DNA of 43,910 bases from a virus, in IMG/VR virus record IMGVR_UViG_3300009176_000042, positions 1-43,910 of that record; one strand, 5' to 3'. The notes beneath the pieces were generated by a model. It saw only the letters and a list, made by a program, of their open reading frames with translations, did no database searches and was not told where the DNA came from. A program made the position numbers and the translations under genes. Of the stretch, positions 4,894 through 10,518 are shown in pieces (the first letter of the stretch is position 1; the number at the start of each line of letters is the position of its first letter).

Positions 4894-7731
4894 ATGCCCT
4901 ATGCATCTCGGCGGCAAGCTCGATGGGCCCATGCAACCGGTCAACGTTTCGCCAAACGGTGGGACAAGCTGACTAACTTTGATGCGCTCCCAGAAAAGAA
5001 AGATAGCGCCTCGACTGGCATGGCCATCCCCCCAACCGGCAACAACGCGCTGTTTAATCAGCCGGGCGTCGGCCGAGTATCCAACCGTCGTAAGAATAAG
5101 AAGATCAAAGACTGCGACTGCGGCTGTATGCAGGTTGAGAAGGCATTTACTACGGAAGCCCCGCCGCCGCCGCGTCCTGGGCCTTCTGGTGGCGCTACAG
5201 CGGCACCAGCTGCCAAACCCGCAGGCGCTGGGCAACCCGGGGAACTGCTATCGCCCGGCGTGCGGCGCATTCGCGGTAACCTGTGCAACGTGCATGGCAA
5301 GTATGGGCCCTGCGACGGCGCAAAGGCGAAACCGAAAAAAGGCCCGAAGGGTCGAGGCGGCGGGGCTGGGGCCAAACCAAAGAAGCCGCCGAAGACTGAC
5401 GAGCAACGGGCGGCAGAGCGGCAGCAGCACGCCGACGAGCGCGCGGCCGAGCTCACAAAGCAGCAGGCCCAGAATATGACCAAAGTCGGCGACGAAACCG
5501 ACTTGGGCGATCATCTGGCCAACCTGAATCAATTCGCTCAGGGCAAGCCGCTCAGGCCCCAGGACATAGACTTTCTTGCCAAAGAAGGACTGCTTGAGAT
5601 CGGGGCCGATGGCACGCCGCGTAAATCGGAACAGGCCAACGTCCTACTCAATGCTGCGAAGCGCGGTGATGTGCAGGGCGCGAAAGACGCCGCCAGTCGC
5701 GCGCGCGATCAGGTTGCCAAGCGGGGCGATCAAGAGGCGACGCGCACGGCAGCAGCCGCGAAAAAGCTTGCGGCCCAGGCTGAGCGCGAAGCCGCGAAAA
5801 AGAAACGCGACGAAGAGCGCGCCGCAAAGAAACCCGGCAAGGGCGGATCGGGCGGGCCTGCTGAGGCGGCCCAGGAGGCTGCTGGGAAGCTCGCGCAGCG
5901 ACGCGCTGGCCGATCGGGTGCTGGCGGCGGCGGCGGCGGCGGCGGCGGCGGCGCTGGGTCGACGAGCATCAGCCCCGGCAAGAAACCCGAAGCGCCCGCA
6001 AAGGTCGAGCCGGAGAAACCGAAGCTTGCACAGGATCTCGTCGACGCCGCAACGACCATGAGCGAAGGCGGCGAAATGACCATGGATCAGTTGCGCACAC
6101 TGATCCGCAACGGGCTCGCAAAGATCGATCGCGACGGCATGCCGGTGCTGACTGCGGCCGGGCTCAACGCCACAAAGAAAGATGCTCGACCAACATCATA
6201 CCTGATGCGCCGCAAGGAGCAGACCGCGCAACAGCGTGCGATGTTTGCGCACATGGGCGGCGGGGGCAAGGGCGGCGGCGGCGGCGGGGCTGCCAGTCGT
6301 ACCAGTGCAGGCAAGGGCGGCGGCGGGCAGCAGGCAACGCTCTGGAATAAGAACGCTGAAGGCAAGCGCGTACCGCAAGCGGGATTCGCTGGGACGAAGC
6401 ATACGCCGGGCGAAAGTGAGCGCAAGGCAACCCCAGCGGCTGGGGCTGGGCCGGCGTCTGGGCAGACGGTTGGCGAAACAACGAAGGCGTACGGCAACGA
6501 TCCGAATCAGTCCTACACGATGCGGCATGAGCTCGTCGACATGGGATCTATTCAGGCGTCGAATACCGCCAACGGCGGGATCAACCCAAAGTATGATGCA
6601 AGCCTACAGCCCCGCGATCGGTCGAGGGCAAGCAGCCAGGCACAGATCGCCGACGTTGCCCAGAACATGAACCCAGAGGTGATGACAACCGACTTCCACC
6701 GGATCGACGCTGGGACGCCGATCATTGACGCGCATGGCAACGTGCTGAGCGGCAACGGTCGTACGCTTGCACTACAGCGCGCGGCCGAGCTCCATCCGGA
6801 TAAGTATGCGGCGTACAAAGACGCGATCAAGGCTGAGGCCAAAGCAGCCGGGATCGACCCGGCGGCAGTCGACAAGATGCAAAACCCGGTATTGGTTCGC
6901 AGGCTGCAGGGCGATCACGATGCGGCAGCGTTTGCCAGAGAAGCCAACAGCAGCGGCACACTACGGATGTCGCCATTGGAGCAAGCCAAAGTCGACGCCG
7001 GACAGATCAGTAATCAGCACATGCTGAAGCTGCACGTATCCGAATCCGGCGACATCGATCGAGCCCTGAGGGATAAGCAGAACAAGCCGTTCATTGACGA
7101 CTTCCTTGCGACGGTACCGGATAACGAACGCGCCAACCTGCTGACGCGCCATGGCGAGCTCAACCAGATGGGGCTCTACCGCGCAAAGGCGGCGATCTAT
7201 ACCAAGGCCTTCCCAGGGGCGGCAGGCGAGCGCATGGCCGAGTCAATGCTTGAAAGCCTCGACCCGGATATCAAAACAGTACAGAACGGGATCAGCGGCG
7301 GGCTGCCGGACTTCAGTCGAGCCACGGCGTTGACGCGCTCGGGCATGCGCGATCCGCACCTTGATATATCAGAAGACTTCGCAAAAACCGTCGACGTATA
7401 CGCGCGCATCAAAGACAATCCCAGCCTGACAGCGAATACGCCGGCACATCAGGTCGTCGCGAAGTATCTGGGCCAGTTGAGCATGTTCGATCGTGAGCTC
7501 AACGCGGATCAGGAACGCTTGCTTGTGCACCTTGATACCATCGCACGCAAGCCGACAGAAGTCAGGGGCCTATTGCAGCGTTACGCGCGGATCGTCGAGG
7601 GGCAGCCGCAGCCTGGGCAAGCAAGTCTGTTTGGCGATAGCGGTCGACTGACGCGGGCTGAATTGTATGATCAGCTTCTGGGTGGTACGAAGGTGCCGCC
7701 GGTCGACGAGCAAGCAGGGATGTTCGGATGA
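4894..7731 (+). CDS. DdrB/ParB-like polyvalent internal virion protein (945 aa)
   Basis: The N-terminus (MPYASRRQARWAHATG) resembles a short motif seen at the start of many phage head-associated proteins. Residues 34-55 carry a segment almost identical to one near the N-terminus of the major capsid protein. Residues about 65-120 have Cys clusters (CDCGC, CNVHGKYGPC). Residues about 130-510 are low-complexity, Lys/Ala/Gly-rich, coiled-coil-like, with a run of ten Gly. From about 545 to 850 lies a DdrB-like ParB domain with the GNGRTLALQRA motif (about 614-624). The C-terminus has QLSMF, QASLF and a final EQAGMFG. Such ParB-type domains occur in phage polyvalent proteins thought to enter the cell with the DNA. 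It lies between neck and protease genes, with a 4-base overlap to the latter. No clear ribosome binding site is seen. Biochemical function is unknown. Confidence 0.75.
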   Translation: MPYASRRQARWAHATGQRFAKRWDKLTNFDALPEKKDSASTGMAIPPTGNNALFNQPGVGRVSNRRKNKKIKDCDCGCMQVEKAFTTEAPPPPRPGPSGGATAAPAAKPAGAGQPGELLSPGVRRIRGNLCNVHGKYGPCDGAKAKPKKGPKGRGGGAGAKPKKPPKTDEQRAAERQQHADERAAELTKQQAQNMTKVGDETDLGDHLANLNQFAQGKPLRPQDIDFLAKEGLLEIGADGTPRKSEQANVLLNAAKRGDVQGAKDAASRARDQVAKRGDQEATRTAAAAKKLAAQAEREAAKKKRDEERAAKKPGKGGSGGPAEAAQEAAGKLAQRRAGRSGAGGGGGGGGGGAGSTSISPGKKPEAPAKVEPEKPKLAQDLVDAATTMSEGGEMTMDQLRTLIRNGLAKIDRDGMPVLTAAGLNATKKDARPTSYLMRRKEQTAQQRAMFAHMGGGGKGGGGGGAASRTSAGKGGGGQQATLWNKNAEGKRVPQAGFAGTKHTPGESERKATPAAGAGPASGQTVGETTKAYGNDPNQSYTMRHELVDMGSIQASNTANGGINPKYDASLQPRDRSRASSQAQIADVAQNMNPEVMTTDFHRIDAGTPIIDAHGNVLSGNGRTLALQRAAELHPDKYAAYKDAIKAEAKAAGIDPAAVDKMQNPVLVRRLQGDHDAAAFAREANSSGTLRMSPLEQAKVDAGQISNQHMLKLHVSESGDIDRALRDKQNKPFIDDFLATVPDNERANLLTRHGELNQMGLYRAKAAIYTKAFPGAAGERMAESMLESLDPDIKTVQNGISGGLPDFSRATALTRSGMRDPHLDISEDFAKTVDVYARIKDNPSLTANTPAHQVVAKYLGQLSMFDRELNADQERLLVHLDTIARKPTEVRGLLQRYARIVEGQPQPGQASLFGDSGRLTRAELYDQLLGGTKVPPVDEQAGMFG
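5923..5952 (+). repeat. (GGC)10 microsatellite encoding poly-Gly
   Basis: Ten consecutive GGC codons encode ten Gly within the low-complexity linker of the 945-residue protein. A run like this is prone to slippage, so linker length may vary between isolates; in-frame changes would be tolerated. Confidence 0.85.

Positions 7732-10518: not shown

Follow-up and report, generated by a model that had tools for sequence, protein, structure and literature searches.

The sequence analysed here, referred to as the window, is the whole 43,910-nucleotide IMG/VR virus record IMGVR_UViG_3300009176_000042 (positions 1 to 43,910). Its head genes stand in the HK97-type order of terminase, portal, protease/scaffold and capsid, with the terminase large subunit assigned via PHROGs and the ORF at 2229-3830 taken as the portal by position only. 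Neither Pfam, PHROGs nor a sequence search of the PDB gave a match for the major capsid protein (9064..10518, plus strand; 484 aa), and it was assigned from a predicted model. Residues 209-453 of this model carry the structural match, and its best structural matches, among those listed, are HK97-fold shells (Z up to 10.1). Model confidence is low (mean pLDDT of 45, 68-85 over residues 231-300, and about 20-35 around the segment described below); on this evidence the protein is predicted to be an HK97-fold shell protein. Its N-terminus comprises a predicted helix (residues 5-27), followed by K-x-S and then a conserved arm.

The gene between those for the capsid protein and a 945-aa protein (7728..9044, plus strand) encodes a 438-aa protein that was identified from alignments and a family model as a prohead protease with an acidic C-terminal part; searches of Pfam and PHROGs gave no match. 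The protease domain (7884-8324, plus strand) contains an invariant His (8043-8045) and Ser (8187-8189), and in an alignment of 26 protease sequences H170 and S226 were invariant. A model built from the L039 relative, for which the alignment included the window sequence, had a pLDDT around 90 in its core and matched T4 gp21 (Z 10.5, 3.3 A over 128 residues) as well as the herpesvirus capsid proteases (Z 5.5-7.9). By its predicted fold, the window gene encodes a prohead protease of the T4 gp21/herpes type. The domain is common to all relatives tested, and the same capsid-assembly protease is encoded in every locus tested. The acidic C-terminal part is probably a scaffold. Other lineages encode a protein of similar acidic character separately.

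The protease is also fused to varied upstream domains in a polyprotein-like manner in several relatives (L008 3930-6743, L028 6516-8798, L030 2282-5344 and L046 5699-7942). Some of these fusions include the scaffold, which is separate in L008 and L030. In L035, a Dps/ferritin-like ORF (6307-6813, judged by eye) lies directly upstream of the protease gene, at the site that internal proteins occupy in other relatives.

The 945-aa protein (4894..7731, plus strand) resembles P1 DdrB and contains a ddrB-like ParB domain (residues 538-671; 6505..6906, plus strand; Pfam PF18763, E 6e-30). It begins with a 33-aa MPxxSxxQ domain, followed by the shared segment, a basic stretch, a GNLCNVHGKYGPCDG motif, an Ala/Lys-rich coil, the ddrB-ParB domain and a C-terminal region. 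Because P1 DdrB was found in the virion head with 39 unique peptides (PMC9024508), the 945-aa protein probably lies inside the head as well, and we refer to it as the internal protein. It also contains a Cys/His motif, RIxGNLCNVHGxYGxC, at about 5245-5330 of the window (GVRRIRGNLCNVHGKYGPCDG). This motif is 86-100% conserved across the window clade and occurs in protease fusions of four relatives (L037 5817-7949, L059 5346-7838, L060 5133-7901 and L064 5360-7912).

A sequence-only reading of the window had reported a short N-terminal segment shared by the internal protein (4993-5058, residues 34-55 of ORF 4894-7731) and the capsid protein (9139-9201, residues 26-46 of ORF 9064-10518). These coordinates are exact, and the similarity runs past their ends on to QPGVG(R) / NFGIE. 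The segment covers 4993..5076 in the internal protein (residues 34-61, EKKDSASTGMAIPPTGNNALFNQPGVGR) and 9139..9216 in the capsid protein (residues 26-51, EKDSGTSGLAIAPHGYNALFNNFGIE), both on the plus strand, with a 16-aa core at 5026-5073 (residues 45-60) and 9169-9216 (residues 36-51), respectively. BLASTP of the two whole proteins gave 14/25 identities (E 2e-5), and the next segment reached just 15 bits, which bears out the claim that the proteins are otherwise unrelated.

Taken alone, the window pair is only fairly strong, since 1000 shuffles of the low-complexity internal protein gave Smith-Waterman scores of up to 70 (median 38), against 73 for the real pair. With a position matrix trained on the capsid proteins of relatives, and including no internal protein, the internal segment scored 40.7 bits, against a shuffled maximum of 11.7 over 287,172 positions. 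Together with the relatives described below, this confirms that the sharing of the segment between the capsid and internal proteins is real and recurrent.

The similarity had also been described as clear at the DNA level. A 15-mer, CAACGCGCTGTTTAA, is indeed present in both genes, but the same codon is used at 9/15 identical residues, where 6.7 are expected, so the DNA similarity adds nothing beyond protein conservation and codon bias. The same count rules out recent gene conversion as its source. At the protein level, the internal segment is 82-89% identical among close relatives, whereas the linker after it is 45-56% identical. The conserved peptide reads hydrophobic-x-P-[HT]-G-x-x-[AGS]-L-[FL]-x-x-[PL]-G-hydrophobic and follows K-x-(V)-S.

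Searches of IMG/VR with the capsid protein yielded about 20 distinct lineages with 30-92% capsid identity. In cultured phages there was no tblastn match to the window capsid or to those of two distant relatives, and scanning bacterial and archaeal genomes revealed no relative encoded there. The segment is present in the capsid protein of nearly every lineage with a readable capsid N-terminus, L041 and L061 being aberrant. When other proteins of these relatives were searched for the motif, as the sequence-only reading had proposed, a second copy was found in six lineages: the window clade (the window, L001-L004, L011 and others), L028, L037, L038, L039 and L046. It always lies in the gene or genes immediately upstream of the capsid gene. 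The carrier is a separate DdrB-like protein in the window clade and the protease-scaffold protein itself, near its N-terminus, in the other five; in the L039 protease model, the segment is placed with low confidence (pLDDT about 36-54). A scan of 26 loci found nothing else above background for the core.

Only the capsid copy was detected in the other sampled lineages (L008/L030/L036, L029, L031, L033, L034, L035, L040, L041, L047/L065, L049, L051 and L059/L060/L064), some of whose loci are incomplete upstream. They include L034 and L051, whose ddrB-ParB proteins are 56-62% identical to that of the window over this domain and are without the segment. Because most sampled lineages, including two with DdrB orthologues, carry it in the capsid protein alone, the segment is not universal, nor is it a requirement for cargo. 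Relatives with the segment in just one of the two proteins are also what the sequence-only reading had named as refuting it, and as regards universality they do.

What precedes the core differs between carriers: MPxxSxxQ in the window, a DUF7218-like leader in L046, other short leaders in L038 and L039, and none in L037, which indicates that the core is a movable module. The second-copy core itself precedes a basic stretch. The L037 carrier begins MSEPLTISPHGPNGLLNTPGLG, at about the position of the Ser in the capsid K-x-S, as if it were pre-trimmed, and has no K-x-S before the core. In L020 (7827-9257, minus strand), a different leader, MPFRSTAQQRFAFGTDQPWAERW..., precedes an otherwise near-identical segment, suggesting that leaders were swapped by recombination at the segment boundary. 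At the DNA level, a scan of IMG/VR for GxNALFNxPG returned only 16 matches, which rules it out as a widespread motif. With L017 left out, 14 of the 15 matches with a recovered reading were capsid or internal proteins of this group, and the remaining one, in L022, was an unrelated large protein.

In the L038/L039 wing, both copies are altered together, from HGPNALFNTPG to LHGPGSLLGVxG. The variants in the window, L028 and L037 conform to P-[HT]-G-x-x-[AG]-L-[FL]-[NS]-x-[PF]-G, while those in L038 and L039 conform to L-H-G-x-x-S-[LF]-L-G-V-x-G in the capsid and protease-scaffold proteins alike; the match between the L039 capsid protein and its carrier spans 38 residues with a score of 105. The mean core score was 57 for matched pairs and 32 for unmatched ones, with the matched scores biased upward because the pairs were found partly through likeness to their own capsid. 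The observed pairing ranked second of 720 permutations (one of the other 719 equals or exceeds it) and the capsid-capsid and internal-internal similarity matrices were correlated with an r of 0.79, the six lineages representing only two or three wings. Most of the evidence for joint change comes from the L038/L039 and L046 wing, and repeated copying confined to a single wing would leave the same pattern as joint selection. In the window, the internal copy is nearer to the general capsid consensus (36.1 bits) than the capsid copy is (26.9 bits).

The recurrence of the second copy in six lineages, five of them distant relatives of the window, suggests that a piece of the capsid protein was copied to dock or trim a second protein in the growing head. 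The explanation that we tentatively favour, at a probability slightly short of even, is that the segment is a capsid-derived N-terminal arm or processing module by which a second head protein is docked and trimmed like a capsid subunit. The segment would be part of a capsid N-terminal arm made up of a short helical leader, K-x-(V)-S and the conserved peptide, with a paralogous copy near the N-terminus of the second head protein (DdrB-like here, protease-scaffold elsewhere). Within the prohead, this copy would cause the second protein to be treated as a capsid N-terminus and would bind whatever the capsid arm binds, be it the inner shell, the scaffold or the protease. The prohead protease would probably trim both proteins, removing the leader ahead of the Ser and freeing it as a small domain. 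The exposed arm would then dock at the capsid N-arm site and the second protein would stay anchored through its arm after trimming.

Several observations are in line with this proposal. The layout of the internal protein (small leader, K-x-S and arm) parallels that of the capsid protein, and the second copy resides in the protease-scaffold protein in five lineages out of six, which is consistent with a shared module for processing or docking. About 16 residues after K-x-S are conserved, and they are kept in L037 without K-x-S, which argues that the arm itself does something beyond providing a scissile site. The presence of the second protein in the virion, docking by the segment and a cut upstream of the core are all inferred. 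It is also possible, though we hold this with less confidence, that this group copied the capsid N-arm onto a protease-scaffold or DdrB-like protein as a capsid-mimicking anchor, co-evolving with the capsid, at capsid N-arm sites. In the open-access literature we found no account of a protease-scaffold or internal protein bearing a copied capsid N-arm.

The sequence-only reading had offered two explanations for the shared segment, of which a common site for the prohead protease is plausible and a cargo tag less so. That the segment is simply a cleavage site in both proteins is nonetheless, in our judgement, rather doubtful. The gene for the gp21/herpes-type protease does sit between the two carrier genes, both copies are near an N-terminus behind a short leader, and K-x-(V)-S precedes the core in most of them. 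Mature P1 capsid protein begins with Ser (SVAAEM; PMC9024508) and the SPN3US protease prefers Ser at P1' (PMC10052503), both of which the Ser after K-x would fit. In the window, L-x-E, resembling T4 P3-P1, stands immediately before the K in both proteins (LPE-K and LRE-K); however, it is not kept in L003 (LTQ) or L020 and was rejected as a fixed feature, as was K-x-S as a general scissile site given its absence ahead of the core in L037. Known prohead protease motifs cover about three residues, whereas conservation here extends over about 16 residues downstream, and in most lineages the protease-scaffold protein contains no such site. While the sharing is real, occurs in six lineages and lies beside the prohead protease gene, a bare cleavage site is thus an incomplete account of a segment that is conserved well past K-x-(V)-S and with whose core the L037 carrier starts.

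We consider it quite unlikely that the segment is a tag for targeting cargo, comparable to the capsid targeting sequence of T4 or the N-terminus of DarB in P1, with its presence in the capsid protein being secondary. Its N-terminal position, its modularity and its occurrence on a DdrB-like protein would suit such a tag, and a precedent exists in DarB, whose first 30 residues are enough to direct a reporter to the P1 capsid (PMC9024508). A role as a general tag is, however, not supported: the DdrB-ParB orthologues of L034 and L051 are without the segment and have another short motif instead, and it is also absent from an ADP-ribosyltransferase-type protein of L029; in five of the six lineages, moreover, the carrier is the protease-scaffold protein and no accessory cargo. 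Slightly less probable still is a neutral origin, in which recombination between adjacent head genes left behind an internal copy that now has no function. The genes are close together, many lineages are without an internal copy and the region is mosaic, as L020 illustrates with its different leader before the same segment. Conservation of the segment next to fast-evolving linkers, its retention at about the same place in six lineages, joint change in one wing and the lack of any surplus DNA identity of the kind that recent copying would leave all argue against this. Finally, the shortness of the segment, the low complexity of the internal protein and the near approach of the best shuffle to the observed score would be compatible with a chance similarity of two N-terminal regions, but the score with the capsid-derived matrix and the recurrence in five other lineages make this exceedingly improbable.

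The nearest parallel to such a capsid-derived arm on another head protein is the N-terminal motif that the 80alpha capsid and scaffold proteins have in common at the Prp site. The 80alpha capsid protein, its scaffold and ribosomal protein L27 have a common N-terminal Prp cleavage motif, and the scaffold copy is essential for assembly even uncut (PMC5744158). As here, a short N-terminal sequence is found in both the capsid protein and a second assembly protein. The 80alpha motif is at the extreme N-terminus, where a host protease removes 13-14 residues (PMC5744158); in contrast, the arm described here stands behind a leader, measures about 16-28 residues, accompanies a phage-encoded gp21/herpes-type protease and varies between lineages. 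Our segment begins at residue 26 or 34 and is without the F-A scissile bond of Prp-type sites. T4 offers a likeness as well: internal proteins of this phage carry an N-terminal element, the capsid targeting sequence, and are cut by gp21, a protease with the same fold. To our knowledge, that sequence has not been described as a copy of the capsid N-terminus.

P1 has a DdrB homologue as a head protein, as the window is predicted to have, and shows both N-terminal capsid targeting, in DarB, and a capsid protein cut to expose an N-terminal Ser (PMC9024508). Unlike the DdrB-like protein of the window, P1 DdrB has no such segment at its N-terminus, and a control comparison of P1 gp23 (1-180) with eight other P1 head proteins gave no common segment above shuffles. 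The HK97 delta domain is about 103 residues. HK97 and the window have in common an HK97-fold shell, a leader ahead of the N-arm and a dedicated protease gene (gp4 in HK97); the window differs in its short leader, the fusion of scaffold to protease and the copying of the arm into another protein.

We would class the feature with shared N-terminal sequences for processing or targeting, as a variant of these. The entry of internal proteins and proteases into phage heads is understood for a few model phages, in which the targeting sequences are short and difficult to predict. A module derived from the capsid and recognisable by sequence would allow packaged proteins to be predicted in uncultured phages and would offer a way to load proteins into heads of this kind, and joint change of capsid and partner would be a handle on contacting residues.

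A second motif, KHxPGKHxQxxHGR(K/G), often followed by AYxxARxGGASxxEARxxAK, was found in head-region proteins of the relatives (L034 2477-4318 and 4243-6750, L051 4891-6477, L030 2282-6510, L029 5518-6657, L008 3930-6743 and L033 1361-6273). The C-terminal domains that accompany it are ddrB-ParB, ADP-ribosyltransferase (PF03496), a possible metallopeptidase and a protease fusion. Because it occupies in L034 and L051 the site of the capsid-like segment of the window, it may be an alternative head-protein element. Downstream of the capsid gene, among structural genes, the window also contains a row of ORFs (11027-15928) that, judged by eye, resemble glycosyltransferases, an acetyltransferase and a DegT-type aminotransferase.
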